Origin: Cafeteria roenbergensis | Lineage: Eukaryota; Sar; Bigyra; Bicosoecida; Cafeteriaceae | Direction of reading: 5' to 3' | Assembly: GCA_008330645.1 (NCBI GenBank) | Contig: VLTN01000026.1 | Location: 186,001 to 250,000 of the forward strand | Length of the DNA: 64,000 nt | Shown here: positions 1 through 47,155 of the stretch, piece by piece | Position numbering within the stretch: the first letter of the stretch is position 1 | Layout of the letters: the number at the start of each line of letters is the position of its first letter | Position numbers and translations under genes: made by a program | Notes under the pieces: generated by a model | Told to the model about the DNA's origin: nothing | Seen by the model: only the letters and a program-made list of their open reading frames with translations | Databases searched by the model: none

Positions 1-178
1 GGGTGGCCAGGCCGGAATGCAACTTGCGCAGCCGCCAGGTTCCTTGAGCCGATCCGGCCCGCCGCTGGCTCCGCGCCGCCCCTGAGCCGCGCCGCACCCC
101 CGCGATGCCCGGGCTGCGCGTGTGCGCACCCGCCATCTGCCTTTCTGTCCCGCCTCCCGTCGCCGCGGCGTGGCGCAG

Positions 179-1540
179 GTGCTGGTGCTGGACCAGTCCG
201 CTTCTTACGGCGGCACGTGCGCTTCGCCCAACCTCACCGACCTGTTCAAGCGCTTCAACGATGGTGCCGAGCCCCCCAAGGGCCTCTTTGAGGCCCTTGG
301 CCGCGACCGCGACTACAACGTGGACCTGATCCCCAAGTTCATGATGGCCGAGGGCGCGCTCAAGGACGTGCTCGTCAAGACCCGCGTGCACACCAGCATC
401 CAGGCCACCGCCGGGTTTGCAGGCATCGGCGGCTGCTACGTCTTCTCCAAGACGCTCGGCAAGGGCTGGTTCTCGGCCGGCGCGGCCGGGGTGGAGAAGC
501 TCCCCGCCACCCCCTCGGAGGCCATGAGCTCCCCGCTCCTCAGCATGGCGCAGAAGCTCTCCCTCCGGTCCTTCCTCGTCTTCGTCAACGGCTGCGAGAC
601 CCCGCAGCGCGGGCCCGACGGCACCGACCTCACCAAGACCACCTCCCGCCAGCTCTACGCCAAGTTCTTCTCCTCCAGCGACGCCGACCTCCCGCAGTTC
701 GTCGGCCACGGCATGGCCCTCTTCCCCTCGGACGAGTACCTCGACCGCCCCGCGTCGAACCTCGTGGCCGCCATCCAGCTCTACCGCGACTCCATTGAGC
801 GCGTCAAGACCAGCCCGTTCATCTACCCCATGTACGGCCTCAGCACCCTCCCCGAGGCGTTCTCGCGCCTCTGCGCAGTGCAGGGCGGCGTGTTCATGCT
901 CCGCACCGCGGTCAAGGGCCTCCTGTACGAGGACGGCAAGGTGGCTGGCGTGCTGGCCCAGCCCGAGTTCGCGGACGAGCCCCAGGCCGCCCGCGCATCG
1001 GTCGTCGTCGCCGACGCAAACTTCCTCCCCGCCGAGAAGCGCGGCAAGTCCCTCGGCGACGTTGTCCGCGCCATCTGCCTCACCAGCGCGCCCCCCCGCG
1101 GCGTCAAGACCTCCTCGGCGCAGATCATCGTGCCCCAGGCGCAGGTCGGCCGCCGCAACGACATCTACATGAGCATGCTCGGCGAGAAGCAGATGGTCTG
1201 CGCCAAGGGCAAGTACGTGTGCATCGCCTCCACCACCGCGGAGGGAAAGGGCTCCCTCGACGCCGAGCTCAAGCCCGCTCTGGACCTGCTCGAGGGCGAC
1301 AGCGTCATTGCAAAGTTCGACTCAACCGCGCCCCTCTACGCGCCCTCCAAGGACGCCCCCGAGGACAACGTGTACTCCACCGGGTCCTACGACGCCACCA
1401 CCCACTTCGAGTCGGTGATGCGCGACGTGGCGCATCTGTGGAACCTCATGACCGGCGAGACGCTCAAGGACTTTTCCGTGCCGTCGCCGGAGGAGGCTGC
1501 CGCCGCCGCAGCAGCGGCTGCCGAGTCGGCAGACGCCTGA
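179..1540 (+). CDS. GDI: Rab GDP dissociation inhibitor (3' exon, N-terminus outside window)
   Basis: This exon encodes 453 residues of a Rab GDI, the cytosolic chaperone that extracts prenylated GDP-bound Rab GTPases from membranes and recycles them. The family pattern is followed end to end: YGG after the first strand, LFKRF, RDYNVDLIPKF (the Rab-binding conserved region), FVGHGMALF, SPFIYPMYGL with RLCAVQGGVFML, and YDATTHFE near the C-terminus. The tail is an alanine run. The exon starts at an intron acceptor (CAG at 176-178) in phase 0, just before VLVLDQ, which corresponds to KVLHMDRN in other GDIs. The first 30 or so residues, with the dinucleotide-fold glycine motif, must lie on an exon before position 1; bases 1-178 show no coding match. 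GDI fits better than Rab escort protein because the length is about 450 residues and the large REP insertions are absent. Confidence 0.93.
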   Translation: MLVLDQSASYGGTCASPNLTDLFKRFNDGAEPPKGLFEALGRDRDYNVDLIPKFMMAEGALKDVLVKTRVHTSIQATAGFAGIGGCYVFSKTLGKGWFSAGAAGVEKLPATPSEAMSSPLLSMAQKLSLRSFLVFVNGCETPQRGPDGTDLTKTTSRQLYAKFFSSSDADLPQFVGHGMALFPSDEYLDRPASNLVAAIQLYRDSIERVKTSPFIYPMYGLSTLPEAFSRLCAVQGGVFMLRTAVKGLLYEDGKVAGVLAQPEFADEPQAARASVVVADANFLPAEKRGKSLGDVVRAICLTSAPPRGVKTSSAQIIVPQAQVGRRNDIYMSMLGEKQMVCAKGKYVCIASTTAEGKGSLDAELKPALDLLEGDSVIAKFDSTAPLYAPSKDAPEDNVYSTGSYDATTHFESVMRDVAHLWNLMTGETLKDFSVPSPEEAAAAAAAAAESADA

Positions 1541-17083: not shown

Positions 17084-20000
17084 ATGGACATCCCGCCTTC
17101 CGCCCTCGCGGCGGCCCCCGACGCTGCGCGCCCCGAGGAGCTGCGGTCAGCGTCTAAGCGCACCCGGGGGGGCAGCCCGGCGCCGGCCGCATCGCCCGGC
17201 CGCAGAGGCGAGCGGTCAACGCAGATGCTGACCGGCGTGGCCGGTGCCAAGCGAGCCCGCCTGGCCGACGCAACACCACAAAGCCAAGGCCAGGAAGATG
17301 GGCCTAAGGGCCCATCTTCGCGCGTGGTGTCGGATGCGGGACGCTCTCCACACGACAGCCGCGATGGGCCGGCTTGGGACCAGGGCGAGGTGAGACAGCG
17401 AGGACTCGCGTTTGCTCGCGCTGTGCACACGTCCCAAGCTCGCGTGGGTCGGGGCACGGTTTGGCTGTGCGGCTCAACACCGTTTGGCCCGGGCGCGCGC
17501 GCGTGGGGGTGCTAGTTGTGGCGGTGCCGACGATTCGGCAAGTTGGCCAACCGGGGTCTCGAGCATGCGTCGAGAGCTTCTCGAGGAGTCGCCGTAGACC
17601 GCCGGCGTTCCTTGCGGCTGGCCGCCGGCCAGTGATCGCTTGGCGCGCGGTCATGGCAAGCCTTTTGTTCTGGGTCGGCAGCAGCGGCGTGGCACAGGTT
17701 GCCCAAAGGGCCATCGCGAACGGCCCGGGGCAGCCCGGTCCTTTGCGTCAACGCAGCGACTCGATTGTTGACGTGCGGTGTCCGACGCCTCACTACCCCC
17801 TGGCTCCTTCCCCGCCGCTGCCTCCGAACCCGGCGCAGTCCTCTGCGATCGCTCCAGGCGCCCGCAATGGTCGCGCGCCCCCCGGTGACGATGCATCGTC
17901 CGGACAGCGCGCGTCGGCTGGCCGATCGACGCGCCAGCGGTCTGAGCCTGGAGTCAAGCCATCCCACGGCCGAGCCGAGCAGGCATCTCGAGCCGAGGGC
18001 TCCGCGCTCCCCACGCCCCGGGGCGCGGCGCGCGGCACGCCGGGAGGGCGCCCCTCCGGCGTGCGCATCAGCGAGTGCGGCCGCGTCGCCTTTGTCCAGC
18101 CTTTGCCGGGCCTGCTGGGAGACGCGCCCATCCGCCAGCGGTCTTCCGAGGCCCAGCAGGCTGCCGCTGCCGTGCTGAACGAGCAAATGGCAGCGGTTCA
18201 CGCTTCTGGGAAGAGCGGCCGGCGCCCGGCGGACATGGGCGTCGAGGTTTGGTTCGGGCTGCCCGGCGGCTACTTGGCTGCCGTCCGCAGCGAGGGCCGC
18301 GGCGCGACGCGGCTTCCTCCCTCTGCAACGCTGACCCTCAAGCGGTGGATGTCCGACCCAGCCCACTGGTCATTCCCCTACCCCACGGATGCTGACAAGG
18401 CCGAGCTTGCCGGCGAGCTCGACATGACCGTGGTGCAAGTCGGAAACTGGTTTCGCAACGAGCGCAAGCGCGTCTGGCTGCCACTCAAGCGCGCGGCCGA
18501 CAAGGTGGCAAATTCGCTGGTCCCCTCGAGCGTGGAGGACATCCAAGCAGAGGTGCAGCGCCAAGGCGACATCGCCAGCGGGCGCATTGACGACAGCGCT
18601 GCGCTTCCGGGCGGCGCCGCAGGTGCCGCGGCTGCAGCGACGGGCACGGCTCCAAGCGGCGACGGCCGCGTGGCGGGGTCCCGTCGCAGCACACCCATCG
18701 GATCACCGCGCGCGTCGCCCTCCTCCCGCGGCGCGCGCGCCCCAGAAGGAGGGCCGCTCGCCCGGACCCTCGGCCCCGCGGCCGCCGCCGGGAACGGCTC
18801 GACTGGCGACATGGCCCACGGCTCTCACCCAGGATATGCCCAGTTGTCCGGCCTCTCTGCCGACCGCGCGCCCTGGAGCCACTCACACCGCCATCGCGCT
18901 GGCGGCCGCCCCGTGGGCGGTGCATCAGGCCCCACCCCCCCGCTCTCCAGTCCGCCGCCGTCCCCCGGCGGGGCGCAGGCGGCCCCGTCGCTCGTTCCCG
19001 CCGACTCCGTGGCCAGCGCAGGCAGCGCAGGCAGGGTGCCCTGGGCAGCCGCGCTCCAGGCCCTGCCGCGCGCGGGTGAGCCGCGCCCTCCCCGCGGCCG
19101 CTATCTTCCCATGCAGGGGCCCTCTCACCATCCCCATGGCGGTACTATGGGGGACGACGAGGGCGTATCCGGCGGCTACCCGTACGGCATGCACCGCCAC
19201 GCCGCCCATCCGCACAGCAGCTTCCCCGCCGGCGGTCTCAGCGCCGTCGACTCCCTCGGCATCCCGTTCCCGGGAAGCGCGCTCGCACCCGCCTCCATCT
19301 CTGAGCTGGCGAGCATGCGGACGTACGGATACCAGGCCGGCGCGGGCGGGCTGCCTGGCAGCGGCCGCGCCCTGCCCAGCACCGGGACCGGCTCCTCGTC
19401 CTCGTCCTCGGCAGTCGCGAGCGCAACCAGCCGGGGCGGGGCCGGATCCGGCCCCGAGGCGCGGATGAGCGGCCTCTACAGCGGCTTGGGCAGCGAGATC
19501 ACTGGAAGCAGCAGCGGCGACGCCGGCTTCGACGCGACCGGCTCCGGTCGGCTGGGCAGCAGAGCCGGCGCCCCGGCCGCGCTGGGACAAGGCGCCGACG
19601 CAGAGACCGGCGCCTCGTCCGGGGCAGCTGCGTCCGCCCATGCAAGCGCCGCCAGCGATGGCCGTGGCGGTTCGTCGTCGGCCGCGCCGGGGGGCGGGGG
19701 TCTTGACGCGAGCGGCCCGGCCTTCCAGGCGCGCCTGTCTGACTCAACCAGCGCGGGCAGCCGCCAGGGTGGGCTGGGGACCTTGCTTGCTGCAGCCTCG
19801 ACTGCCGACGCGGCCTTCATCCGAGGAGACACCCTCGGTCCCTCGTCATACAACCAGCACCTCCTGCAGCAGCCGCTGGCGTACCAGCAGCACCAGCACC
19901 AACAGCACCAGCAGCAATACCAACGGCCGCAGCACCGGCAGCAGCACCAGCACCGGCCTCACCCCGGCCAGTCTCATTCAGCCACATCGGCAAGCCAGGG

Positions 20001-22653
20001 CGTCAGTTCCGGCGCCTCCGCGAGGGCCTTCCCAACTGCCTCAGAGCGAGCCGCCGGCTTTGCTGACCAGTTCGGTTTCGGCTCGCTTGCCGGGAGCGCG
20101 TCCATGTTCGAGGGGAGTGACCCCTTTGGGCCGCTGTCCGGGACCGGCGGCTTTGGCCAGGCGTCTTTGCCAGGGATGCACGCCTTTGACTCCGCTGACT
20201 CGACCGAAAGCGGCGCTCTGTTCGGAAGCGGCTTTGCCACTCCCGTTGAGTTCTTCGCGGACCCTGGGGTGCTTGAGGCTGAATGGGACGTGGCTCAGCT
20301 GCCTCCGGGCGCCGACTTGGCCAGAGGCGCGGGGGGAGACGGAGGCATGCCGGGCACCAGCGGCCGTGACGGCATGCTGTTCCACGACGACAGCATGTTC
20401 GACCCGGCCGCGGTCCTTGCGCCGGGTGGCTTCTCCACCATGTTCGTCGATCGCGCGGTCTCAACCGCCCCGTTGTCCCCTGAGCCATGGGTTGGGGCCC
20501 CGCCCCAGTTCCGCGGACCGTTCGCCTCACAGCTGGCCATGGCACAGAGGGGCGAACCCGCCGCCCGGGCGGCAGGCCCAGCCGACGCCGCTGGCAAGCC
20601 GCACGCAGAGCACGACCTCCTGCCGGGAGAGGCGTCCGCTCAAGGCCGCCCAGGTTCCCAGCGCGCAAGCGCAGGCAAGCCGCCCGTCTCAGCTGGCGGC
20701 ACAATGGCCGGTGGCCCGCCGTCCGGGCAAGCCAGTCGAGGGGCCGAGGCTGAGCCCTCGGCCGCCTCCTCGTCCTCGCCCCCCTTGGCAGCGACGCCCG
20801 CCTCGGGCGCTGCAGCTACCGGTCTATCGGCACCCTCAGGGCCTTCCCCCGGCGCAGCCGGCGGCGCTAGTGGTGCCGCCAGGGCAGAAGCCGGGTCCGC
20901 GCCGTCCCAGGAGGAGCACAACCACGCGGACCGCCGCCACTGGGCGTACTACAACCGCTGGCTTCGCTGGGCCAGCCTCCAGCAGCAGCGGCGCATCCGT
21001 GCCGCTGCCCTGGACTTCTTCAAGAACCCCGCCCCTGGCTCGCCTGCCTACGACGCGGCCATCGCGGCGGCTGCTACGGAATTCCACCGGCAGCGGTCGA
21101 GGTTCGCCGCCCGTGCTCGGCAGATGCAGCTCATGAAGGCGCAGCGGCAGTTCCAGCTCCAGCGCCAGCGCCACATGCTCCGAGCCCAGATGCAGCGCGG
21201 CCACGCGGACGAGTTCGGGGCGCCAGGCGAGGCCCACAACCCTTGGAACCGAGGGCTTGGCGATGCGGAGGGCCAAGACCGCGGCAGCAGCGGCTCTCAC
21301 ACGGCAGCTGCCGGCACCAGCACGGCGTCTTTTGTGCCAGGCAGTCGCGCTGGCCCCAGTCAGCCGCAGGCGGCAAGCCGCACCATCGCGATGCCAACCA
21401 TCTCGTCCGGCTGCTCCACGGTTTCGTCCCAGTCACCTGCTACCGCTGCCAGGGCTGCCGCAGCGTCGCCTGACATGGCGGTGGTGTCTGCTGCGGGCCC
21501 TGCGCCCGGCCCCAGCGATCAGCCGTCAAGCGCTCCCGGGCCTGAGGGCTGGGCTCGTGGCTCCCCAAGCGTGGCTGCGCTTGCCGCGCAAGCGGCCGGT
21601 CGCGGGCCGGCGCAGCTGAGGCTGAGAGCCGAGGACAGCTTGGCGTCGGCGGCGTCCCGGGGCAGCGACGCGGCCAAGACGAGCGGGAGCAGGACCGCGG
21701 GGGCCGAGTCTGGGAGAGAGGTCGGCCGCGACGCACCAGCTGGCGCGAGTGGCAGGACCAGCAACCACAGCAGCAACAGCGCCATCACTTCAGCAGGAGT
21801 TGGCGGTGGGAGTGGCATGGCGGCGCTCTCGTGCGTGGCTGCTCTGGCTCGCGAGGACGGCACCTCGTCGGCGAGCAGCTCGTCTCGTCCAGCCCGCCCG
21901 CCTGTGGTCGCCCCAAGCCTCACAGACCCCCCAGCACGGGACGCGGGCGACGACACTGGAGGATATGCAAGCTCGCATAGGCAAGCGCCGATGGGGCCTT
22001 CCCTCTCACAGCAACAGCAACAGCAACAGCAGCTCCTTGCCGAGCAGCAATATTTGATGCGAATGCGCCGCACGCAGCAGCTTCAGCACCAGCGCCAGCA
22101 ATTCCTCCTGCACCAGCAACAGCAATTGCTGCAACAGCAACATCACCAACAACAACAGTACTTTCAGGCGCCCTCAAGCGTGGGATGGCTTGGGCCGGCG
22201 GACTCGCTGACGGGCGGCATGCTCCCGACGTCACGCCACGCCGCACTCGCTTTCGCGGACAGCGCGCGGTCCAACCGCAGCGGCTACTCTGCCCATCCGC
22301 TTCAGCGAAACGGCCCGGGCGGCGGTGCTGGCGCAGAGGGGTCAGGCGACTTCGGGCCGCCTCAGGCGCTCGGCGGCCCCCACCCCGCGTTCACCGCAAC
22401 CGGCTCGTTTGACCCTGCTCGAAGAGCAACCACCTGGCCGGCCGAGGCCCGCGTGCAGCCCTCCTTCTTCGGGGCAGGCAGCGCCGCGGAGCTGGTGGCC
22501 GACGACTCTGCCAGGTCTGGAGTTCTCCCATGGAACGACTCGATGCGATCGCTCAGCGCTGCGGAGGCCGGCGCCATGCTTTCCGGGGGTCTGCTCGAGC
22601 GCAGGTCTGGCGACTCGGGCGGCCAGGCGGAAGGCCCGTCCAGACATTCTTGA
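17084..22653 (+). CDS. TALE-class homeodomain protein, two exons (inferred)
   Basis: This is a likely nuclear transcription factor. The homeodomain spans 18309-18506 and shows LPPSATLTLKRWM (helix 1), the diagnostic TALE three-residue PYP insertion, and WFRNERKRVW (recognition helix with the invariant W, F, N and R). I infer exon 1 as 17084-17389, starting MDIPPSALAAAPD and containing KRTR and KRAR basic patches, with donor GTGAGA. The intron is 449 bases and the acceptor follows a pyrimidine-rich tract at 17837-17838. Both junctions are phase 0, giving about 1,706 residues with the homeodomain near 260-325. The rest is low-complexity: glutamine/histidine runs at 19879-19962 and 22009-22160, and serine/glycine/alanine elsewhere. 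One helical island at 20932-21200 (HWAYYNRWLRWASLQQQRRI, then a Q/R-rich helix) looks folded. If exon 1 is wrong, the open frame still extends upstream of the homeodomain from 17374. Confidence 0.82.
19879..19962 (+). repeat. CAG/CAC-rich tract encoding Gln/His
   Basis: Imperfect CAGCACCAG repeats encode a mixed glutamine/histidine run within the homeodomain gene, typical of transcription-factor activation segments. Confidence 0.75.
22009..22160 (+). repeat. CAA/CAG-rich tract encoding poly-Gln
   Basis: Three clusters of CAACAG codons encode glutamine runs interrupted by leucine, methionine and arginine near the C-terminus of the homeodomain protein. Mixed CAA and CAG codons reduce slippage and suggest selection on the peptide. 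Confidence 0.75.
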
Positions 22654-22851: not shown

Positions 22852-25800
22852 TCATGAAACAAGCTCCGTGAGGCATCCCATGACAGGTGCAAGGCGCGGG
22901 CAAGCCGAAGCTGCAGCTGCTCCCGGCACGACCAGTGCGACCATGTCCACCTTGGCATTGGGGTGCAAAAGGGCTCTGAGCCGCCTGCGAAGCGCATCTG
23001 CAGCGAACCGCGACACTGAAAAGTCGCTCGCGGACAGACCCGTCATGAACCGGTCGCCCTCGGCTCCAGCAAACAGAACGCGGACACCGCGCTGCTGCGC
23101 GTCCACGCCAGATGTCCTGCAGTCGGCGATGTCCAGGGCAAACTGGTAGGTCCACCGCGCTGCGCCGCTCGACCCCGCGAGCATCGCATCATGTTTCGCC
23201 GGATTCATCGGCAACGGCAAGCTGCCCTCTCCCCGCTTGGTGCAGGTATCGGGCTCAGGGTGGGCAGGGAGACGCGTCGTCCCTCGGGAGAAGGCTGTGC
23301 CTCCCGAGGGTGGGCCCGTCGCTGCGCTGAGCTCCGTGCCAAGGGCACCAGATTCCACGCCCTGGGAGCCGGGGCTGGGGCGAAGGACCGCCATCGCCGC
23401 GATGTCTCCCGGCGAAATCGCAATCACGCGGCCAACGAACCGCACTAGCACTGGGTGCCTGGCCCGCTGAGCGATCAGGCCGGCCGAGGACGCGGCTATG
23501 GCTGGCGGAGCAGCCCCGACGACGCACGTCACGAAAGCGTTTTCGGGGAGAGCAGGCGCGGGCTCGATGCTCACGACGGATTCTGGGCCAGAGGCAGCCC
23601 CCGCCGGACCCCCCGCCTCGCTGCAGTCCAAAAGGCTGCTGCTGCCAGCCGCTGAACAGCCGCCGGGAGCGTCGCTCGCGGGAAGCGCAGCAGCGTTCCG
23701 CTGGGCTGCCCAGGCAAGCAACTTTTGCTGGGCCTGCCACTGAGCGACAGCCGCGTCAGCCGTGTCGCTGCCTACAGCCACGAGGCCACGAGCGCGGGCA
23801 TGCGTGGCAGCCCTCATCCGGCTTGCGGCCGCCCCTCCCTCGACCGCTTCGTCCCCGAGTGACAGCTCGCAAGTTGCAACGGCGCTGCCCGTGAGAGCAG
23901 CGCCCCTGCAGCGCACCCAGCACCCCACGGCAACGTCTCCCCCTCCCGCCACGAGCCACTCTCCGAACCTGGGGTGCAGCGCCAGCCGCATCACCACGCC
24001 ATCAACAGCTGAGCGGCTTTGCTTGACCCACGCGGGCGCCCCATCGCGCTGCATCCGCCCCGTCACTGCCGCGGCTGGCGTTGCGCCGCCAGCCCCGTCG
24101 AACAGCCACCCCGTGGAATCCGACCCTTCCAGCCACCCAGCGCCCGTGAGGGACGACTGCCCATCAGCGGCAGTCCCTTCGCCCCCGCTTCTGCCGCCAG
24201 AATCAGGCGCGCACAGGAACGGCGGGGAGACCAGCCGCTCCCCCGGCGGCGGCTTGCGGCTGTAGCCGGTGCCATCCCAAAGGTGGAGGACCAGCAGCGG
24301 TTTCGCTTGTCCGTCCATCGTCCCTGCTCCGAGCCGTGGCTGCCCCGCGCCGGCCGGCCCGGCGGCAGGCAAGGCGGCGAACGGCGGGTGGTCGCGCTCG
24401 TCCGGACCGACGACCGCCCGCTGCGGGGGCGGGACCGAAGACGCCCCTGCGATGGGCACCTGGGGCGCCAGAACCAGCCTCACGTGCGCGAGGGCTTCGC
24501 TGAGAGACGCAAAGCATCGCTCGTCAGCGGTGCTAACGGCGCACACGCAGCCAAACACGTCCACTGCGTTCCCCACGGCTACGCCGGCCAGCTCCCGTCG
24601 GTCCAAGGCGATTCGGTAGAGCTCCTTCACCGGACCAAGTGACGTTGGCGACTGCCGGCAGAGCTGTGCCCGAGCCGCGGAGCTGAGCGGGCGGCAGGCC
24701 GGTGAAGCAGGCTGAGACGGGGCTGCAGAGTCGGCCGGATTCGGGTCCGGAAGCGTGTCGACCCCGCCACCTGAGCTGCCGCTGCCGCTGCCAGCCGGGT
24801 TGCCGCTGCAGCTGTCGCCACCGCTGCTGCTGCCGCCAGCCTGAGGGGCGCAAGGGACGATAGCGTCGCTTGGGTCTGAGCTGCTCGAGGCTGCCTCCGG
24901 CACGTCGCCTCGCGTCCAGCCCACGAGAGCTCCGCCGCCTCCAGGCTCACCCAAGAGCCGGCGCGGAGGCGGGCGAGCAGCGCCGTCAAACGGGGGCAAC
25001 GGCTCTGCCAAAGCGCGTGGCTGCCGAATGAGCCCAGCCAAGAGCGGCAGGGTGTTTCGCGACCACTCCAGGAGGCGGTTGGCCTCACGCATGTCAGGGT
25101 CGTCCATCACGAACCGGTCACCTTCGCTGCACAGGACAGGGATTGTTCGCACCGCCGGCCGGCTGCGAAGAAGCAGCATTGATGATGGTCCAGGACCCAG
25201 GGGGCATCGCCTGTCCTTGACGTCTCGGTTCGGCGACACAAGGTTCATGTGGGTTCGATGAAACCGCGCCCGCTGAATGCGAATCACGTCGCCAAACGCT
25301 GCTCCGGCAACGACGCCACGCAGCGCGTCTGGCGCCACTCTGGCGCCGGCAGCCGACGACGTCGTTGATGCTGACCCTGGGTGCGTTCGCCTGGTGACGA
25401 AGGCCTGCAGCGTTAGCGGTCCCCTGCCAGCCGCCAGCCACGCAGGGTCGGTGAGCTTCAGAGTGGTGGTCCACTGGCCCAGGCGGTTGAGCGAGGGCAA
25501 CGTCGCGTCCACCACAACGGCCCAAAGATTGGCCGTGAAGTCTCCATCGGCCATGTCGCAAACAGGCGGAAGGCAGCGATCCTCGGCGGGGCTGCCCATC
25601 AGCCGCTGGACGGGGGGCGGGCCACGCGTTGCGCAGCTCCTCCGCCCAACGGCGCCCGCCGCGCGGATTGCCTCCAGGTTAGGGCGAACGCACTGGCAAA
25701 GGTCGTCCGGCAGAGCGGGGAGAAGCCACCGTCCGATCGGCAGCGCCTGGGAAGGCATCGCCGGAGCAGGCATCACTGCAGCGGGCATCGCTGGAGCAGG

Positions 25801-28227
25801 CATCGCCGGAGCAGGCATCGCCGGAGCAGGCATCGCCGGAGCGAGCATCGCTGGAGCGGGCATCGCCGGAGCGGGCATTGACGGAGCTGCAGCCTGCCCC
25901 GTCGGCCCGGCGGCGCGATGGCCAGTTGCCGCCGAGGAGGACGCCTGTGAAGCACGACCCGGGAGCGCGACGGTCGGACGGGCGGCTCTTGCAGCGCAAG
26001 CCCGATGCTCCGCCGCAGAACAAGCAGAGGGCTCGTCGTCGCGAGGGGAGTGGCAGGCCGATCCAGCGTTGGCCGGGCCAGTGCCCTGGCTGGAGACAGA
26101 AGGCCCCGGCGCACGGCCATCCTGGGACGCTGCTGATGCGCGGAGGTCTGGCACTCGCGCGTCGCTCGGCGCCCTCCCCTGCGGCGCATCTGTCGCGTCG
26201 CTGCAGTTCCCAGCTGCGCTCTCAGGAGGGTCATCGCTGTCGCAACCAGCATTGCTTGTGTCTGCCTGCCTGCAGTTGGATGCCTCGCCGAAGCCCGTCT
26301 CGCCGGCCCCGTCGGCACCAGCCCCGCATGCGGTACACCCCATTCCGTCGACAGCGACCGGCTCGGCAATGCCAATGCTGTCTTTGGATTCAACGCGCCT
26401 GCCAGCGCCTGCGACGGTGCCTCCTTGGCAGGCGGGACTGCCGCTCGCAGTGCTTGTGCCGCAGTGTGGGGAGGCGTTGCCACCGGCCGTAGGCACCTCT
26501 GCCATGTCGCCAGGGCCACTGACGCCCCCACCGCCCCCGCTACAGCCACTTGCAGCCCCACCAGTTTGACTCGAACCGGCTTTGGCCTCGACATCCCCTC
26601 CGTGGCCACCACCCGCTTCGCCTTGAGCGTGGCCACCACCAGCACCATCGAGGCCGTCCTCGGCGTTGGTGTCGGAGTCGGCGTCGGAGTCGGCGTCGTC
26701 GCCTCCCACTGAGTCCGAGTCGCTCAGGCCCTCGCTCGACTCGGACCGATCCAGGATTCGAGCACAGGCCGCGATGCGGCGACGAACCCGCCCCAGATGC
26801 GCAACCACTTCACCCCCGTTCGCCCGCTTCCCTCCAGGCCACCCAGGGCGGCTCGCTGAGCGAACGCCAGCGCCGGCAGGCCCCCAGTGGTCGCCGTCGA
26901 ACAGCTCTACCGAGGAGAGGAAGGAAGTGGAGGGCGCGCAGAGGCGTGCGGGCAGTTCGACTTCCCCCTCATTTGAGCTCTGCCCGGTAGAGCAAGTGTC
27001 AGAGTCGCTCGGCGAACCCTCGCCGTCGCTGCCGTCGCTGCCGTCGCTGCCGTCGCTGCCGTCGCTGCCGTCGCTGCCGTCGCTGCCGTCGCTGCCGTCG
27101 CTGCCGACGCTGCCGTCGCTGCCGTCGCTGCCGTCGCTGCCGTCGCTGCCGTCGCTGCCGTCGCTGCCGTCGCTGCCGTCGCTGCCGTCGCTGCCTTCGC
27201 TGCCGTCGCTGCCGTCGCTGCCGTCGCTGCCGTCGCTGCCGTCGCTGCCGTCGCTGCCTTCGCTGCCGTCGCTGCCGTCGCTGCCGACGCTGCCGTCGCT
27301 GCCGTCGCTGCCGACGCTGCTACTGTCGTCGCTCTCCTCATCTACGTCAGAGCCTGCACTCCTGTCGTCGCTGGATCTGCTTCCTGACGCGCTTGGTGTG
27401 CGGCCAAGTCGGGCAGAGGGCGGGGCAGCTCCAGAGGCGGTCAGCGCCAGTCCATGAACCATCACGGTCACATCAGGTGCGCAAACCGCTGACGGCAGCG
27501 GCGGCGGCACCGCCTCCAAAACTCCCCCGGCTGCATCAAGCGACCACAGATGGACTCTGGAGAGGCCACTGACCCGGGGCAAGAATCCCCGGGGAGCAAA
27601 CGAAGAGGCAGCCGACGTGCCCTGGCCACTCTCCCGCACCGCCCGGCGACGAGGCGCGCTGCCCCACGCAAAGCCCGCGCCGGCGTCGTCTTCCTCCTCA
27701 TCGCTGCCGCCGCCTCCACCGCCGGCCCAGAGGCCACGCTCGCTCGACAAGGCCAGCTCGCCGCTCTGCTCGGCCGCCAACCACGATGAAAACCCCACCG
27801 CGCTGCCACGGCTCTGCCCGGCACGAAACCGCGGCAGAGCCGCAGCCCAGGCCACCCCGTGGCTCGTGCGGGGTCGCTTGGCGCGCATGGCCTCACGAAC
27901 CAGCGCACCTGCCCTGCAGGACAGCTCCTCCGCTTGTTGGAGATGGGCAAAGCCAGTGCTGTTGGAGGCGAGGGCCTTGTTCGGCTGAGAGGCGGAGGCG
28001 CCCAGAGGCACCACCGACTGCGCCGCAACGTCGGGGTGGTTTGCGGCCTTGGAGCCTTCGGAGACTTGGTCGTCGCTGGCCGACGACATGATCGGCCACC
28101 GGTGGCCTTGGCGCCGGAATGGCTGGCAAAGGGCGAGCGACGCACGTCTCTCAGAGTCGCTCGCGTCGTCAGCCAGCCATGCCCCGCCGCGTAGCAGCGA
28201 GCGGGGCGATGCTGGAGCGCCGTCGCC

Positions 28228-28296
<69 letters not shown>

Positions 28297-28311
28297 ACCG
28301 TCACCGTCGCC

Positions 28312-28360
<49 letters not shown>

Positions 28361-29460
28361 GCGGTGGCGGTGGTAGCGTCCTCAGCCGCTCTCCTGACTG
28401 GCACAGCTTCGCCCGGCGACTGGTCCGGGCAGCGTAGTGCGCTGGGCACGTGAGCCGACGCAGCCCGCTCGGGCCTTTGAGGGGGCCGCTTGTCAGAGCC
28501 GGGGCCGCCTGTCCCGGCAGCGGAATCACTCCCACAAATGACGAAACCGCCTCCGTCGCCGCCCCCATCACCACCAGCACCCTCCGGAGCATCACTCCTG
28601 CCTGGCAGGGCCGCGGCGTCCTCGCCATCGTCGCGCGGGCGCTTGGCGGCCCTTCCGGCCACGCCTGCTGCTGGGACCACACTCGTGGGCTGGCTCGCAG
28701 GCTCGATCGGCGTGCAGCGGCTTCCAGGGACCGCAGTGGCAGCGCTAGTGGGGGGGCGCTGCGCCTCGGGGCCGGGCCTCGCCGCGCGCGTGGCGCCCTC
28801 CGACCCGGCCTCGGCGGGGCGCACCGACGGCACAACTTCGACCCGAACGTCGCGGCTCGCGACGCTGCGGTTTCGCGCCAGCCTTGCAGCGGCACCCATG
28901 GACCTAGGCGGGGTTTGCAGGGCGGTGCTCGCCACTGAGGCCACGACTGTGGGGAGGCCGCCCACGTGATCCCAGGAGCTCTCGGCAGCGAGGGCATCGG
29001 GCCCCAGGGCTGCCCGCGCGGTGGGGGGGACGACCACCCCCTGGCTGTCGGCTGGCGCTGCAGATGACGTGGCCGGCTGGACCGCCCACCCCGCCCCAGC
29101 GAGCAACACAGCGTCGCCCGGCCGCGCTGCCGCGAGGCTCGCCGCCGCAGGAAACCCCGAGTCCGATGTCAGCACCAGGCGGATCCGCTGGCGGCCGGAG
29201 CCGGCGCCGCGTTGGGCGGCAGCGCCGGCTGCGCGGTCGGCAGAGCCGAGGCCTGCGTCACCGCCTCCGGCGGAGGGGTCTGACGTGGCTGGAGGCTGTT
29301 CCAGCACGGCCTCCACCCGAACACGCGAGGTCCGCGAGGCTGCTGCCGGAGGCGGCTGCGGGCCCCGGGGCTGCAGCGGCAGCGGCGACGAGGGCGGCGA
29401 GGGCACTGTAGCCCGAATAGCGACGACTCGGGCCTGGGAGGCGCGGACAGTGGAACCCAT
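22852..29460 (-). CDS. POT1: POT1-like telomere end-protection protein with giant acidic N-terminal extension
   Basis: Numbering is from the in-frame codon at 29493; the first ATG is at 29460. Three C-terminal segments match POT1 OB folds. OB1 (about residues 1315-1500) has DFTANLWAVVVDATLPS, then GDVIRIQRARFHRTH, and closes with the family helix ANRLLEWSRNTL. OB2 (about 1690-1900) contains LLVLHLWDGTG, equivalent to LLKVWDGTRTP in animal POT1. OB3 (about 2110-2213) has WTYQFALDIAD, VRVLFAGAEGDRFMTGLSA and a final helix. POT1 binds the single-stranded telomeric overhang and recruits other telomere proteins. The first 1,300 residues are mostly disordered and carry GD, GSD and MPAPA tandem repeats. 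The extreme N-terminus (SRVRVEAVLE, QRIRLVLTSD, RPGDAVLLAGAGW) could be another OB fold. POT1 is normally 500-700 residues, so this would be an extreme expansion; two adjacent genes fused only by a chance open frame is the main alternative. Confidence 0.75.
25754..25887 (-). repeat. 15-bp tandem repeat encoding MPAPA
   Basis: About nine imperfect 15-bp units (GGCATCGCCGGAGCA on the plus strand) read as MPAPA on the minus strand, directly before the OB1 segment of the POT1-like protein. They may act as a flexible linker. Confidence 0.85.
27022..27320 (-). repeat. 9-bp tandem repeat encoding Gly-Ser-Asp
   Basis: About 33 units of GCCGTCGCT (plus strand) with a few single-base variants encode (GSD)n with occasional GSE and GSV on the minus strand. 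The array makes an acidic, probably disordered tract in the POT1-like protein. The unit length preserves frame. Confidence 0.95.
27809..27842. repeat. Inverted repeat, 10-bp arms
   Basis: CGGCTCTGCC and its exact reverse complement GGCAGAGCCG are separated by 14 bases inside the POT1-like gene. Both arms are the abundant octamer with one extra matching base on each side. Confidence 0.7.
28219..28359 (-). repeat. 6-bp tandem repeat encoding Gly-Asp
   Basis: About 23 units of GCCGTC, a few with A in place of the first G, encode a (GD)n run on the minus strand in the POT1-like protein. The low divergence between units suggests recent expansion. Confidence 0.95.
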
Positions 29461-30000
29461 CCATACAGCCGCAAGAGGGGGGAGGTTTGGCAAGCGGGAG
29501 ACGCGCTGGCCCGCACGTGAGGGACGCGTCTCGGGCAGCGGTCGCCGATGCTTGTGCTGATTCGAGCCCCGTGTGACTCACCTTGACGTGTTTGAACGCC
29601 AGCGAGGCCGGTCCGCGCCCAACAGCTGCTTCCCCCATGTCTAGCATGTCCCCTGCACACGGGGGGTCCGCAACAAGCCGCAACGAATGCGTGAGGCGCG
29701 CGTGAAGCACCGCGCCAGGTTCAAACGCAATTCGCCCAGCCGCAGCGCAGCTCACCATCCTCAGGCAGGCCTGGCACCAGCGAGGCAAGCTCGGCGAGTC
29801 CCCGAGACCATTTGTCCATTCGGGGCGCGCGCGGCCGACCCTCGCCGCCGGCCCGCGTGCGCCGTTTGGGGGCGGACTTGGAACGGGGCGGCTGGGGGCT
29901 CTGCAGCTCCGGACCCAAGAGCCTGCTGCGCGCGATCCAATTTCCGCCACCCTGGTCGCGCGAACATCCGCGTGAGCCCAGCCCCAAGCCTGCCTCTGAG
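29461..30000. other. Divergent promoter region, POT1-like and collar-like genes
   Basis: This 540-base spacer separates two divergently transcribed genes and presumably carries both promoters. I see no TATA box and no gene. The left part is in frame with the POT1-like gene as far as 29493, but without an ATG. Confidence 0.5.
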
Positions 30001-34413: not shown

Positions 34414-37400
34414 ATGGCGGACCAGGGCAAGGCCGGCTGGGGCCTGATGAGGCGACTGCGTCATCGCATGGCGGGAAACAAGGACGGCGTTTCGAGCGAG
34501 TTCAACGACCTGAACCTGCGTGAGTGGTGCGCAGTCGGCGGGGCTTGCGCGTGAGGGCGGGATCGCGCCATAGGTGGTGCTCGAGGGGCCGCGAAGTCGG
34601 TGCGCGCCCGGCCGTGACGCGGCTGGAGTCTCGGCAACCCGGCCGCGATTTCCCCTGCCCTGCTGAGCTGAGGCAGCGTCGGCCAACGTCAGCGGCGCCA
34701 GCGCCGCCTGCTCCCCCGGCCCGCCTCCTGGGCTGGGTTCAACCAACCGGGCAAGCTGGAGGCAGGATCTCGTGAAGCTGTGACCCACTGAGCGACCTCG
34801 GGGGCGGGGCACTGGGTTGCCAAAAGGGCGTGTGCATCGCTTTCGCAAAGTGGCCCGCGCCCTGCCGTGCTTGACCGCGCAAGCGCTGCATCCCGCAGAA
34901 CTCAAGGCGACTCGCGACTTTCTGGCAGACCTGAGCCGCAAGTGCGCGGCGTTTGAAGAAGCCGCCACCGGTGAGCCGGCCAAGAACGCGTGCCGCCAAA
35001 GGGTCACAGTTGACCGGCCCATTGACCCGCCCCGCGCGGCAACCGCGAAGCCGTGCTCGGGGTGTGCTGGGGGAATGGGGGTGCCGCAAGCTGCGGCAGG
35101 CCTCCAGTGCTGGTGGGCGCCTGCCCGAGGCGCCCCCGTTCGCTCCGCCCGACCACGAGTCCTTTTTCCGGCACTCGCTCAAGGAGTGCTTCGCAAGCGC
35201 CCCGCGGTCAAACGCTGCCCCGAAGTGCAATCGCCTCCCCCCTCCCCCCCCGCAGCCTTTGAGGCAGCCGGCGTGGCATTTCGCGATGCGCTCCAGACCA
35301 TCTGCGCGTCGGAGGGAACGCAGCGGTCGCTGGGCCCTGCAGCGGCCACGGCGCTGGGAGCTGCGCAGGGGCGCCTGCTCTCCGAAGGTGTGCTCACCGC
35401 CCGCGCCGTAGCGGCATCTCTGCGCGACGCCGCGACGTCCCCCTCCCTCTTGGGGGAGCTCGCCAGCATCAAGGTGAGGCCGTCGCTGCGCGGACCGCTC
35501 AGCGGGCCGCGCGCCTGCCGTGCTTGGCGAGAAAGCGTTCGGCGAGACCTCCGGCTCGCACCTGCGCTCGCTGCGGACACTCCCCGCCCCCGCCCATCCG
35601 CCGTTCTGCTCTTGTCGCTGCTTGTCGGGGCTCTCGCTCCGCGCACCCGCAGGCAGCCAAGCAAGCGCTGTACGACCTCAACGAGGACCGGCGCCGTCTC
35701 CAGGGCGGCATTGGCGCAGCGCGCTCCGGCCTGCTCGAGGCCGCAGCGGACCACCGCGAAGCGTCGGAACGCTTCGGCGAGCAGCAGAGCGGCCTCATCG
35801 CGCGCATGCGCTCCGTGGAGCGCGCCATCGACCTCGGGGTTGCCGCTGCGCTGATGCGCGCCGCCGGCGCCGAAGCCAACCTTGCAGCCTCCGTCAGCGA
35901 CAGCATGGCCGAGGTGCGCGAGTGGGCAGGCACCGCCGCGACCAACCTGCGCTCGGAGACCTTCGAGTGGCAGGATCAGCGCTCCGCCTGCGACACTGAC
36001 TACGAGTCAGCGGCTGCGGCTCCTGCTCCAGCGGCTGGCGCGGCGGAGTCGATCGACGTGGCTCTGCCCAGAGCGTGCAACGCTGCGGCGCTCATCGGAT
36101 CAGCGCTGGCCCAGCCCGACGATGCCGCCGCCCATCAAGCGAAGTCGCGCTCCGGACACCGGGCCCGCTCCGAGGAGGACACCGACGTCGACGGCGACGT
36201 CGACGGCGAGGCTGGCGGCACGAGCGTGTCGGCAAGCGGCGCTGCCTCCGGCAGGCTGGGCATGCGGGCCGTTGCCGCGGCCACGGCAGCCGCGGTGGCG
36301 GCGTTGGTCCCTCCCGCTGCCGGCCCCGCCAGCGACGCCGACGACAGCGATGCCGACGACGAGGACGGGGCCGTGGAGGCTTGGGGCTCCAAGCCCCGCA
36401 GGTCCGCAAGCAAGCCCTCCACGTCCACCACCAAGCCCATGCCCGTCAAGGTGCCGTCCGGCCGCGTGCCCTCGTGGGCCATGTGGCGCGTGCGGCCGCA
36501 GCTGCTTCCCGCGCGCGCGGGCCCGCTGCGGCTCGTCCACGGCCCCCCCGAGGCAGCCGGGTCTGCCTTTGCGGTCATGTGCGTGCCGGCAGAGCCATGG
36601 TCGGTGGCCACCTCGCTCCTCCACGGCGAGCTTGTGGTCGCATGGATCGACCGGGTCATCGACCAGTCAACGGCCAACCCTGGTGCTCTGCTGGTGACCA
36701 ACTTCGCTCTCCGCTTCTTCCCCTACTCGCCTCCCGACCTCTCCGGCGCCGCTGCCGCATCGCCGGCCGGCCCTCAGCAGGCCGGCCAGGGCTCGCTGGC
36801 CGCCTCTGGCCCGGCCCCGCCCCGCCCGCAGTCCATGCCCGTGGCGGGCAAGGCAACCGGCAGGGCCGCACGCATGAGCCGCATCTCCTCGATGATGGTC
36901 GGCGCGGGCACCCCTCCGCCGGCAAGCGCAACTCCGCCGCCCCCGGGAAGGTCGCCCGCTGCCGAAGCCGGGGCTGAGGCCGACGACGCCGCTGCCGCCC
37001 TCGGCCTGCCGGCGGCCGCGCCCCAGCCCTCCGCCGACTCCCGCGCGCTCTCGCGATCGGCGTCCGTGCCGGCAGCCGCGGCCTCCACCAAGCCGCTTCG
37101 CTTCCCCGTGCTGGGGGACGGCTCTACCGGGACCCTTGCCTGCTTCACGGGGTGGACCGGCTCGCGCGACACCCGCGTGGACGTGACCGTCATCCCCCTG
37201 CGGTCCGTCGTCACGGCGCGGGCCCGGGGGCCCAAGCTGCCCTCCGACGCGCCCGCCCGCCTGGGCGATTTCTACCAACACTCCCCTGGCTCACGCCTGA
37301 GTCTGGAGTGCTGCGACGGCCGCGAAGCCAGCTTCGACTTTTCGCGTGCCGTGGCTGCGGAGCCGAAGCTCCGTGAGGCTGGCGCCGATGCCACTGCCGT

Positions 37401-40284
37401 TGAATCCGAAGGTGCTGGTGCTGGTGTCGCTGTCGCTACCGATGCTGAAGGTCCCCCCCACTTCGCCGGCGGCTCGGCAGAGCAGGACGGCGCGACCTCC
37501 TCTGCGGCGAGCGACGCCGGAAGCACCGTGGCCACCAGCGGCAGCGTCGGCGGCAGAGCCACGCCCGTTGACAGCACGCCAGGCGACAAGCCAGACACCG
37601 CTGCCGCCTCCCCAGCGCCCGCGGACAGCGCCATGGCAGCTGCGGACGCCGCAGGCAACGCGCTGCCGGCCTTCGGCCCCGTCACGGCGAGCCAGTTGCT
37701 CACGGCCCTCACGGGGGGAGGCGCTGCTGGCGCAGCTGCAGGCAAGCGCCGCACCGCTGCGCCGGCGAGCGGCGGGGGGTTGCTCTTCGAGGACGTTTAC
37801 GGATTTGCCAAGGCCCACGCCGCCGCGCTTGTGGCGGCTCTGCCAGACGCGGAGCGGGACCAGCCCGCCTCCCGCGCCGGCTCCCTCCCCCGGGCGCTGT
37901 CAGCGGGCTGGAGGGTGTACGAGCCCGCGGCAGAGCTGGCGCGCATGTTCGTCGGTCGCCTGAGGGTGTCAGCAGCGACCGACCCGTCAGGCGCTGTGAG
38001 CATGGCGGTCGAGGCGCTGGCAGAAACCGCGGCGGCGCAGGCGGCTGCGGCAGCCGCGGCAGCCGCATCAGCAGCAGCGCGCACCAGCGCTGCCTCCCGT
38101 GGAGTGTCCGGCCCGTTCGGGCGCTCCGGCGACGAGGAGGAAGAGGAGGACCTGCTGCTCGTTCGGCGCCGCGCTGCGGCCGAGGCGGCTGCCAAGTCCG
38201 CCTCCCCGCCCGTCCCCGCCGAGGGGTCGGCGGGGGCTTACTGGGAGGCGCGCCCCGTCAACAAGGACTACGCCATGTCGCCTACCTACCCCGGGACCAT
38301 CATCGTCCCGTCAGTGGCCTCGGAGGAGCAGCTTCTCGGCTCGGCCAAATTCCGCAGCAGGCAGCGATTCCCCGCCGTGACGTGGGTGTGGGGCGGCGTC
38401 TCCCTGAGCCGGGCCGCGCAGCCGCGCACTGGCATGCTCAGCAGGACGAGCACGGAGGACGAGGATCTGGTAAAGTGGCTCTGCCATGGCCCAGAGCTCT
38501 GCGTGGACGACCGGGCGCCAGCGCCGGCGGCGGCAGGCGGGGACGCGGGTGCTGCGCCCGCAGCCGCAGGCGCTGGGGCCGGCGCCGGCGTTGGAGCCGC
38601 TGCGGCAGCGCAGCCCCGCAGGGTGGGCCAGGCGCGGCAGGCGCGGCTCCTGGCCGCCCTCCCCGACGACGCCTCGGGTTGCGGGCTGGTGATCTTCGAC
38701 GCGCGGCCCGCGCTCAACGCGCGCGCCAACCGGATGAAGGGGGGGGGCTGGGAGCAGGAGCGCCAGTACCCGGGCGCCCGCTTCGTCTTCCTGGGTGTGG
38801 ACAACATCCACGTGGTGCGGGACGCGCTCCTGGACCTCCGCAAGCTCTGCGCGGAGGGCGTCGCTTCGTGGAGAGCCAGCGGAGGAGCTTCCAAGGAGGC
38901 CGCGGCGGGGGCGGGGGCGGGCGCCAGGGGCGGGCGCGGGGGAGCGGCCACGCGCGGCCGCGCGGCCTCGTCCGCGTCGGACCGGTCCAGGCCGAGGGAC
39001 GGGAGCGCCTCGCTGGCAGAGCCGCTGCAGGAGCTGGAGGAGGAGCACGAGGACTCGGAGGAGCCTGAGACTGGGGAGGCTGGGCCAGAGGCTCCGGCCG
39101 ACGCCGCCGTCGCGGGCGCAGCAAGCGGCAGGCGGGGTTCTCTTGTCGTTGGCGCGGGCCGAGCGGGGTCGCTGCAAGCCGCCGCCGGGGACGACAGGGC
39201 TGGGCGTTCGCTGAGCGGCGGAGGCGCTGAGGCCACGCGTCGACGCCTTCTGGCGTCCTCCTCTGAGGCTGCAGTGTCAGCTGACGATGGGAGCCTCGTG
39301 TCCGCGATGGAGACGGAGTCCAAGACGGAAGCCGACTCTGCGCGCGCCGCCGCCGCCGCCGCCGCTGCTACGGCTGCTGCTGGCCCAGAGGGTGCGCCAA
39401 CCGCCCTGTCTCGCTCTGGCGACTTTTCGCAGCTGCCTGTCTCCAGGGAGCCGGCCAAGTGGCGCTCCGCTCGGCACGCCGTCGTGGGAGCAGCGTGGCC
39501 CCGACTGCTGGTGCCCATCTTGGCGGGCGCTGCCCGCCTCGCTCGCTGTCTCCGGGCTGGCAGGCCGGCGCTCGTGCACTGCTCCGACGGCTGGGACCGC
39601 ACCGCCCAGCTCACGTCGCTTGCGCAGCTTTGCCTCGATCCGTACGCGCGCACCGTGGAAGGATTCGCGTCGCTCATCTGCAAAGAGTGGCTCTCCTTTG
39701 GCCATCAGTTCGGCCTCCGCACGGGCACAGGGTCGCCGTCGGCCCCGAAGAGGTCGCGTGCCCGGCCTCCTGCCGCGGCTGCCTCGCAGCGCTCTCCGGT
39801 GTTCCTGCAGTTCTTGGATGCGGTGTGGCAGTTGGGCAGAGCTCACCCGACGGCTCTGCAATTCGGCCCCGCCTTCCTCTCTGCTATTGCGGATCATGCC
39901 GTGTCAGGCCGCTTCGGCACGTTCTGGGGGGACCACGAGCGCGACAGGGTTGTTGAAAGCGACGCGGAGACTGCCACTGCGTCGCTCTGGACGGCCGTCT
40001 TGAGCGACCCTCGGCCGTTTGTCAACCCGTCATACATCCCGGTATCTGCAGCCGACGGAGCCGGCGCTGTCTCCAGCCCGGCATCGGCTGCAAGTCCCCG
40101 GGGCGCCCGTCTCCCCTCGGATGCTGCCCTGGTGGAAGCAGTAGCGCGCATATCGGCACAGACCAACGCAGCTCGAACCGCCCTTCGCAACGCGGCTTCC
40201 CTCGACGTGTTCGCTATCGACCCGCCCGTCAGCGAAGAGGCTCTTGGCGTCTGGCCGCACTGGCTGGTGCGCTTCGCGGTGTGA
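34414..40284 (+). CDS. BAR-like / GRAM / myotubularin phosphoinositide 3-phosphatase, four exons
   Basis: Exons are inferred at 34414-34519, 34851-34970, 35256-35473 and 35653-40284; phases agree at every junction (1, 1, 0), giving 1,691 residues. Donors are GTGAGT, GTGAGC and GTGAGG; the third acceptor follows a long C/T tract. The second exon's acceptor could instead lie near 34826. The catalytic domain is clear: RFRSRQRFPAVTWVW, DARPALNARANRMKGGGWE, VFLGVDNIHVVRDALLDL, and the P-loop HCSDGWDRT near residue 1457 with C, D and R intact, then CKEWLSFGHQF. Such enzymes remove the 3-phosphate of PI3P and PI(3,5)P2 on endosomes. A GRAM/PH-like segment lies near residues 470-510 (GELVVAWIDRVI, LLVTNFALRFF). 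The first 250 residues are helical with heptad-like spacing (FEAAGVAFRDAL, ASERFGEQQSGLI) and resemble a BAR domain of the ACAP type. Long alanine-rich linkers split the phosphatase domain. The fusion is unusual. Confidence 0.88.
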
Positions 40285-41085
40285 GCCCTAGGCACCCTGC
40301 GCCCTGCGCTTGCAGCCAGGGTGCCTGGCCCGTCCGAGCAGCCAGCGGGCCCTGATGTGCCAGCCGTTGAGGCTCAACGCTGGCAACGAAGCCCTGGCAG
40401 GAACATGTGTTTCTCCGCCTCCATCCATGCCACGGGCCGCGTCGCAGCAACACCCAGTTGAGGCCTCTGCTTGTCCCTCTGCCCTGCGTCTGCCGTGATC
40501 GAGCAGGCGATTGCGTGGGCATTGCGCTCCCGGTTTGCGTCCTCTGCAAAGCATTGCTGCAGGCGGTCCAAGTTGTGCAAAGGCTTGCGCCTGGCCCGGC
40601 CCGTTCTCGCTGCCGAGCGGTGCCGCCGCCATCGTTCGCGCCGAACCCACACCGGCGCCGCTGCAGAGCAGCGCTCTGCAGCGGGGCCACACACTGTTTC
40701 TCGGCACTCTGCGGACGCGACCGTCGTTGCAGCCGTGTCCCTTCGCCTCCTCACAGTGAGCAGGCATCGAAACGCATGCGTGTAGAGGCATTGCGCTGGG
40801 GCTGCTCTGTCAACGAGTTGGCAGTGCGGGCAAGGGGAGCCGCGCGCTGGGAAGCAGGTCGCTGCGTTCCGAAATCAGCTGGACGCCTGACACCCCGCGA
40901 CTGTCGCTGGGCCTGCACGCCTGTGCGCAACAGCTTGGTGTGTATGCTGGCGCCAAGCTTGTGTGCGACCTACCTGCCGGGTGACGGGCCCATGCCCAAG
41001 CTCCAGCCGCTCCCGTGCTTGCGTTTCCCGCTCGCGCGCTTGTGCTCTCTGCTCGCAGCCGCTCGCTTGCATTGCAGCCCGCTCG
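40285..41085. other. Spacer between myotubularin and methyltransferase genes
   Basis: This 801-base spacer is visibly less GC-rich than the genes to its left. It carries a near-perfect hairpin at 40658-40684 and no supportable gene. It should contain the methyltransferase promoter. Confidence 0.5.
40658..40684. repeat. Hairpin, 12-bp perfect arms and 3-base loop
   Basis: CCGCTGCAGAGC is followed by AGC and then its exact reverse complement GCTCTGCAGCGG. It lies 374 bases beyond the myotubularin stop. It contains the GCAGAGC half-site in both orientations. No T run follows, so it is not a simple bacterial-type terminator. Confidence 0.75.
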
Positions 41086-41905
41086 ATGGCTTCTGCCGCA
41101 CCCCGCGGAGGACCAGCAGCTTTCTGGGACAGCACGTATGGGTCTGGTCCCGAGATGGTCTACGGTCAGGCCCCCAACCGCTGGCTGGCTGCGTCGTCAG
41201 GCGTGAGGGACCTTGTTCCCGAAGGCGCCCGAATTGTGGAGCTTGCCTCGGGAGAGGGCCGCAATGCGGTGTGGCTGGCGGAGCAAGGCTTTCGTACGGT
41301 TGGGGTTGACATTTCTGCTGCAGGTGTTGCCAAGTCACGGGCCTTCGCAAAAGCAAAGGGCATGTCGGAGGACGTGCTGCGGTTCGAGACCGGCGACGCC
41401 ACAACGTTCGGTGACGACGACTCCTTTGATGCCGTGGTCGGCATATTTGCGCACGTTCCCCCGCCGATGAAGCAAGCCTTCATCGCAAACATGGTCCGTA
41501 TCGTCAAGCCAGGCGGCCGAGTGATCGGCCAGTGGTACACGCCCACGCATGTCGACCGCAAAAACGACCCAGCAATTGCCTGGGGCAAGGGTGGGCCGCC
41601 AGATGCTGCAGCATGTGAGTCAACCGCGCGTACTTGCCACCGTCCGCAGCGCGCATGGCCTTGCCGCAGGGCCGGCCATCTCAGACACTTGCCTTGAATG
41701 ACACCCGCGTCGTGTGCCTGCAGGTTTTTCCGCAAAGGAGCTGCGTTCATCTCCTCTCGGTACCGAGGGCGCATTCGAGGTGCTGGAAGAGGTCGATGCC
41801 GACGTAACGGAAGGGACCCTGCATGCGGGCAAGGCCAACGTCCTCAACGTTATTTGGACCAAAGCCACCCTTCTGGAGGGCAAGCCCGACAGGGGTGAGG
41901 CTTAA
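41086..41905 (+). CDS. Bacterial-type class I SAM-dependent methyltransferase, two exons
   Basis: Exon 1 (41086-41614) and exon 2 (41724-41905) join in phase 1 over a 109-base intron (GTGAGT...CTGCAG), giving 236 residues. The start MASAAPRGGPAAFWDSTYGS leads into the family N-terminus FWDxxYxxxEMVYGxxPN. Motif I is VELASGEGRNAVWLAEQG (residues 51-68), with acidic D75 after the second strand (VGVDIS) for the ribose hydroxyls, and FDAVVGIFAHVPP and KPGGRVIGQWYTP follow. The C-terminal exon supplies FSAKELRS...FEVLEEVDADVTEGTLHAGKANV. This arrangement is common in small bacterial methyltransferases of the TehB/UbiE-like Methyltransf_11/25 type, acting on small molecules; the substrate cannot be read from sequence. 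The joined product runs through the GGPPDAAA-FSAKEL block exactly as bacterial relatives do, which supports the splice site. An ancient transfer from bacteria followed by intron gain is possible. Confidence 0.85.
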
Positions 41906-42022
41906 GCTTGCCAACGCCAGCGTGTGTGGTCGTGCGTCGGCACAAGCGTATGCTCAGATGCTGCTCTGAACTGACTGTCACGCTTCGAACAGAGACCCTG
42001 AGCTGTTGTGAGCCAGTCGCGC

Positions 42023-47008: not shown

Positions 47009-47155
47009 CGTGAGCACATGCAGCCGGACTGCTCTGTCGTGACTCGTCGGTTCCGAGAAAAGCGCCGGAAGCCATGTTCGTTGATGAGCGTGATTGAAAA
47101 GGCTGGCGAGGAAAACGCCCAAGCGCAAGTCATGCGCACGCCGAGCACGCAAATC

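Follow-up and report, generated by a model that had tools for sequence, protein, structure and literature searches.

The window analysed here, the whole 64,000-nucleotide stretch from positions 186001 to 250000 of contig 26, comes from an assembly of Cafeteria burkhardae comprising 36,303,456 bases in 167 contigs. The genome report on Cafeteria roenbergensis (burkhardae) strain BVI gives 36.3 Mb, 170 contigs and 70.1% GC (PMC6972860). On the minus strand of the window, one frame runs for 2,213 codons without a stop (Table 1). Its stop codon lies at 22852-22854 and, reading back, the frame remains open to 29577, the preceding TGA being at 29578-29580. The interval 22852-25560, singled out in a preliminary description of this DNA, covers only the C-terminal ~900 residues. 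The frame fills the gap between its neighbours: the convergent ORF ends at 22653, and on the other side the diverging plus-strand ORF probably starts, judged by eye, at an in-frame ATG at 30001.

Table 1. Features of the locus and its surroundings, in coordinates of the window; limits of the OB folds are approximate.
Feature	Position	Strand	Remark
GDP dissociation inhibitor (GDI)	122..1540	+	E 3.6e-110; then four GTGAGT words at 1555-1579
KN-type homeobox	17374..22653	+	PF05920, E 6.6e-11
Open frame, 2,213 codons	22852..29493	-	TTG at 29493; first ATG 29460
Possible OB3	22855..23466	-	block VRFVGRVIAISPGDIAAMAVL; later VRVLFAGAEGDRF at 23047-23085
Probable OB2, with long inserts	23839..24630	-	LLVLHLWDGTG at 24265-24297
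OB1, Telo_bind/POT1 type, with apparent inserts	25024..25554	-	closing helix ANRLLEWSRNTL at 25048-25083
15-bp tandem array coding (MPAPA)n	25753..25887	-	
9-bp tandem array coding (GSD)n	27022..27320	-	
6-bp tandem array coding (GD)n	28218..28358	-	
N-terminal segment, OB-N-like by eye	28984..29433	-	candidate
Proposed intron 2, 148 nt	29434..29581	-	donor GTGAGT
Proposed second exon	29582..29652	-	DMLDMGEAAVGRGPASLAFKHVK
Proposed intron 1, 103 nt	29653..29755	-	donor GTGAGC
Proposed first exon	29756..29819	-	MDKWSRGLAELASLVPGLPED
Myotubularin-related phosphatase domain	35524..40284	+	E 3.9e-92

We examined the 1,300 codons upstream of the first OB fold (OB1) for signs of coding. After removal of repeat arrays by a simple pattern, 1,139 codons were left, in which an order-1 Markov model predicted 15.6 stops (minimum 4 in 400 simulations) and none was seen; the other five frames of the same stretch contain 7-29 stops each. 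We also trained a codon score on seven other large ORFs, all within the window, leaving this frame out. In the ORF frame it was positive in 20 of 22 intervals of 100 codons and was the highest of the six frames in 20 of 22; the test is soft because the training ORFs were assumed to be genes from their length. The score dips to about zero at 26193-25594. The preliminary description had placed three POT1-like motifs in a single open frame, and all three are indeed present in a frame that is free of stops beyond expectation. When the whole frame was scanned against Pfam, TrAA12 was matched (E 3.4e-12), but the matched residues, 359-428, coincide with the (GD)n array, and we rejected this match as low-complexity. 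A match to Androgen_recep on a shortened copy of the N-terminal region (E 0.0068, under the cut-off of that family) was rejected on the same grounds. Used as a query against the genome, the shortened copy hit, besides its own locus, three sites that we considered unconvincing (E 0.36 to 2.2).

Of the three folds, OB1 is the best supported. In Smith-Waterman comparisons, OB1 scored 58 against OB1 of Oxytricha TEBP-alpha, a value reached by none of 1,000 shuffles (26.3±4.0; 7.8 shuffle standard deviations); this likeness had been spotted by eye first and was tested afterwards. Against OB1 of S. pombe Pot1 it scored 49 (2/1000 shuffles), and against human POT1 OB1 only 31, which is not significant (119/1000). 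For scale, the same test gave 111 for human against S. pombe OB1 and 100 for human against TEBP-alpha OB1. In all, seven segments were each compared with ten known domains, among them two versions of human OB3, which makes 70 comparisons. Only three of the 70 stood at 5/1000 or better (TEBP-alpha OB1, S. pombe OB1 and human OB2), and all three paired like with like; four others stood at 16-26/1000, none of them like with like. We also cut 300 tiles from eight large ORFs of the window. The best tiles for TEBP-alpha OB1 (58, next ORF 36) and for S. pombe OB1 (49, next ORF 42) hold the OB1 described here, and the best for human POT1 OB1 lie in other ORFs.

Profile comparisons pointed in the same direction. 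An hhalign profile built from the three known OB1s scored 39.6 on OB1 as against a maximum of 18.6 in 40 shuffles, and the alignment of this three-species profile spans 67 columns and extends through GDVIRIQRARF. MAFFT aligned the closing-helix tryptophan in all four OB1 sequences; the GDVIRIQRA stretch was placed differently by MAFFT and hhalign. For both the C-terminal 902 residues (E 0.21) and trimmed OB1 (E 0.013, 15.7 bits versus a cut-off of 29), PF02765 (POT1) was the sole family listed by Pfam. When 51 of 176 residues were removed from OB1 at three places picked by eye, the match rose to 17.3 bits (E 0.0043, profile positions 15-79). The family thus stayed under its curated cut-off throughout (11.9, 15.7 and 17.3 of 29 bits), and it was absent from the listing when the whole frame was scanned. 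The best PDB match of the cut OB1 was TEBP-alpha, at a non-significant E of 0.14, in an alignment that runs out of register beyond the first strands; other TEBP-alpha chains ranked 4-7 in that search, after two unrelated proteins. Uncut OB1 and the 902-residue piece matched no POT1 or TEBP chain in the PDB at E <= 10. The POT1-type OB1 of the preliminary description is thus supported by the pairwise, profile and tile tests, even though the Pfam cut-off was missed and human OB1 gave no significant score.

Searches of the wider genome with OB1 gave no second match at E <= 10. Six-frame genome searches with PF02765 and PF16686 found nothing at E <= 0.001, and genome searches with PF12009 (telomerase RBD) and PF10451 (Stn1) found nothing; none of these four families matched in any control. 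Among viral contigs, 56 pattern matches to OB1 were obtained and none was confirmed.

Could OB1 be a chance resemblance within a GC-rich frame that is open but non-coding? Single-sequence structure models are poor and GC-rich sequence yields other long frames in the window, which would suit that reading. Yet the frame is stop-free beyond expectation and coding-like in codon use, and a match as far from its shuffles as that to TEBP-alpha would then be coincidental; we regard chance as highly improbable. The structure prediction of the C-terminal part that the preliminary description had called for gave a pLDDT of 35.2 for 904 residues, modelled from a single sequence because our searches yielded no relatives, which is uninformative and speaks neither for nor against POT1 folds.

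OB2 has moderate support, which comes only from human POT1. Its score against human POT1 OB2 was 46 (1/1000 shuffles), with the match around WDGT, and the pairwise shuffles against S. pombe and TEBP-alpha OB2 were not significant. In the tile control, OB2 reached 46 for human OB2 as against 43 in an unrelated ORF; for OB2 of S. pombe and of TEBP-alpha, the highest-scoring tiles lay outside this OB2. The OB2 profile scored 19.0 on a trimmed segment (shuffle maximum 17.0) over 19 columns; on the 904-residue piece it scored 17.0, within its shuffles (maximum 19.2), over 38 columns and by another match than that in the trimmed segment. No Pfam family matched OB2. The LLVLHLWDGTG segment thus belongs to a probable OB2, whose likeness shows against the human protein and not against the other two.

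At the C-terminus, the motif VRVLFAGAEGDRF is present as described, and a third POT1-type OB fold is suggested, weakly, by a three-block matrix. The candidate scored 12.7, a value reached by none of 300 shuffles (maximum 12.3) and none of 208 real tiles (maximum 9.3), although the blocks had been picked by eye; block 1, VRFVGRVIAISPGDIAAMAVL, alone was placed as expected, with blocks 2 and 3 elsewhere. Known OB3s left out in turn scored 25-31, one of them inside its own shuffles. Pairwise shuffles against all three known OB3s were not significant, hhalign gave 13.6 versus a shuffle maximum of 14.8, and no Pfam family matched. Among known proteins, human and S. pombe OB2 and OB3 recognize each other significantly in the same test, and neither OB2 nor OB3 is significant between human and TEBP-alpha or between S. 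pombe and TEBP-alpha. In profile comparison with POT1 OB1, OB2 and OB3, of the kind proposed in the preliminary description, OB1 thus scored above its shuffles, OB2 did so narrowly on the trimmed segment and not on the 904-residue piece, and OB3 did not.

The weak assignments of OB2 and OB3, together with the Pfam description of PF02765, which covers Cdc13 too, would suit a different sort of OB-fold protein (CTC1/Cdc13-, RPA- or BRCA2-like). We consider this improbable. Among the domains of TEBP-alpha, S. pombe Pot1 and human POT1 that were compared, the best pairwise matches are to OB1 of TEBP-alpha and Pot1 and then, in the right order, to POT1 OB2, and RPA1 is a separate gene, which we found with PF08646 (E 6.8e-23) on a contig other than contig 26. 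We favour a POT1/TEBP-alpha-type telomere end-binding protein, and the frame is probably the gene of a divergent orthologue in C. burkhardae; judged from sequence, its first DNA-binding domain is well supported and the rest less so.

A further question is whether OB1 and the 1,300 codons ahead of it are parts of one product. Known POT1 proteins begin close to OB1, and here an ATG at 25554 lies 8 residues ahead of the first aligned OB1 residue, and the codon score dips at 26193-25594. These features would be expected of two genes, a ~900-residue POT1 starting at that ATG and a separate gene upstream, the frame running on by chance. However, a gene upstream would have to end in a stop or be spliced out of frame, and its 1,300 codons contain no stop. 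GTGAGT, GTAAGT and GTGAGC do not occur between 29433 and 25560, although GTGAGG (27896) and GTGCGT (28145, 25693) do occur upstream of OB1. We judge two genes to be unlikely. The upstream codons are free of stops and for the most part look coding, so that a single long product is the simplest interpretation; this agrees with what the preliminary description had inferred for the N-terminal 1,300 residues.

The 5′ end may lie beyond the open frame. Donors GTGAGC at 29755 and GTGAGT at 29581, with phase-matched acceptors, suggest a protein of 2,238 residues that starts at 29819 and begins MDKWSRGLAELASLVPGLPEDGDMLDMGEAAVGRGPASLAFKHVKARVVAIRATV. The upstream exons remain a proposal because the window contains GTGAGT no more often than its anagrams (13 occurrences; median of the 60 anagrams, 13) and because 259 of 4000 random positions have a compatible single-intron extension. 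In the RPA1 gene of the same genome (contig 3), all four placeable introns have the donor GTGAGC; they were placed by alignment with human RPA70. Two GTGAGC words also lie within the frame (24950 and 23574), so there may be in-frame introns that separate OB1 from OB2 or precede OB3.

The segment that follows proposed intron 2 looks OB-like by eye (ARVVAIRATV ... RIRLVLTSDSG ... GDAVLLAGAGW). It matched no Pfam OB-fold family and no PDB sequence. A single-sequence model of the 159 N-terminal residues was uninformative (pLDDT 46.5; elements E-E-H-E-H-E), and Foldseek with this model gave 13 matches at E <= 10, the best at E 5.2, and no PDB fold match at E <= 0.001. A fourth fold, OB-N, is reported from U. 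maydis and most metazoan POT1s, with an extension ahead of OB1 of ~200-350 residues in most basidiomycete Pot1s (PMC9119445). The Cafeteria frame would resemble these proteins in having a folded-looking segment upstream of OB1, here a candidate only, but would differ in the more than 1,000 residues between that segment and OB1. A four-OB stramenopile POT1, with an N-terminal OB-N, ~1,100 disordered, partly acidic residues, then OB1-OB2 and OB3, is a speculative and rather doubtful reading. If true, it would mean that OB-N, so far known from metazoans and basidiomycetes, was already present in the common ancestor of opisthokonts and stramenopiles, and it would agree with the proposed ancient paralogy of POT1, RPA1 and CTC1. 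To our knowledge, such a protein would also be the longest POT1 by far.

In known POT1, OB1 and OB2 sit next to each other on the single-stranded, G-rich end of the telomere, and OB3 docks a TPP1/TEBP-beta-type partner; by analogy, OB1, OB2 and OB3 of the Cafeteria protein would have these same roles. The ~1,300 largely low-complexity, partly acidic residues N-terminal to OB1, together with the inserts in the OB folds, are most likely disordered padding that arose by GC-rich repeat slippage, like that of some genes nearby. We infer the identity of OB3, the DNA binding, the partner, the single transcript, the function and the origin of the padding.

Oxytricha TEBP-alpha (PDB 1PA6, 1JB7) is alike in the first strands of OB1 (NLWAVVVDATLPSLNRLGQWTTTLKLTDP v. 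HFYAVVIDATFPYKTNQERYICSLKIVDP) and in having probably three OB folds in the same order, with OB2 and OB3 of the Cafeteria protein not significant against it; it has 495 residues (PDB 1JB7), whereas the frame here has at least 2,213 codons, its OB folds carry inserts and its N-terminal region is long. S. pombe Pot1 aligns in OB1 at 19% identity. Human POT1 aligns at the WDGT motif of OB2, but its OB1 shares only 19% identity, without significance; OB3 of the human protein contains an inserted domain.

On the condition of a single gene, the preliminary description saw in this length a greatly expanded telomere protein, which is overstated. By an entropy measure, low-complexity sequence makes up 56% of the frame, 65% of the part upstream of OB1 and 42% of the part that begins with OB1. 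By the same measure, the KN-homeobox ORF (1,759 codons) is 61% low-complexity, the myotubularin ORF (1,586 codons) 60% and an ankyrin-repeat ORF (1,125 codons) 47%, and the longest ORF of the window (3,265 codons) reaches 81%; less padded are GDI (6%) and three other long ORFs (16-27%). Oxytricha TeBP-beta3, a paralogue among telomere proteins, has 1,399 residues, including an extension of ~1,000 residues that is unexplained (PMC3558436); it shares with the Cafeteria frame the long extension, but it is a beta rather than an alpha protein and its extension is C-terminal. The length is thus less telling than it seemed at first, since some neighbouring ORFs and TeBP-beta3 are similarly long or extended. 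Padding is not universal in the window, yet it is frequent enough to make length a poor guide to telomere biology.

Telomere proteins change rapidly in evolution and have been little sampled outside animals, fungi, plants and ciliates. We found no paper on POT1 in Cafeteria in a partial coverage of the literature. A bicosoecid POT1 would extend the family in the stramenopiles and would offer a test of the age of the four-OB form.

Elsewhere in the window, GC content falls to about 0.64 at 40001-48000, over a long minus-strand ORF (42023-47152), and AT skew is +0.16 to +0.23 from 42001 to 48000. The assembly contains no match to a 24-base TTAGGG pattern (2 mismatches), to an exact TTAGGG dimer or to a 21-base TTTAGGG pattern (trimer, 2 mismatches). 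We viewed the outermost 90-110 bases of 80 contig ends (both ends of contigs 1-40), one of which consists of N; the sole telomere-like end among them is the start of contig 7, whose bases 1-21 read as a degenerate ACCCTAACCTAACCCAACC.
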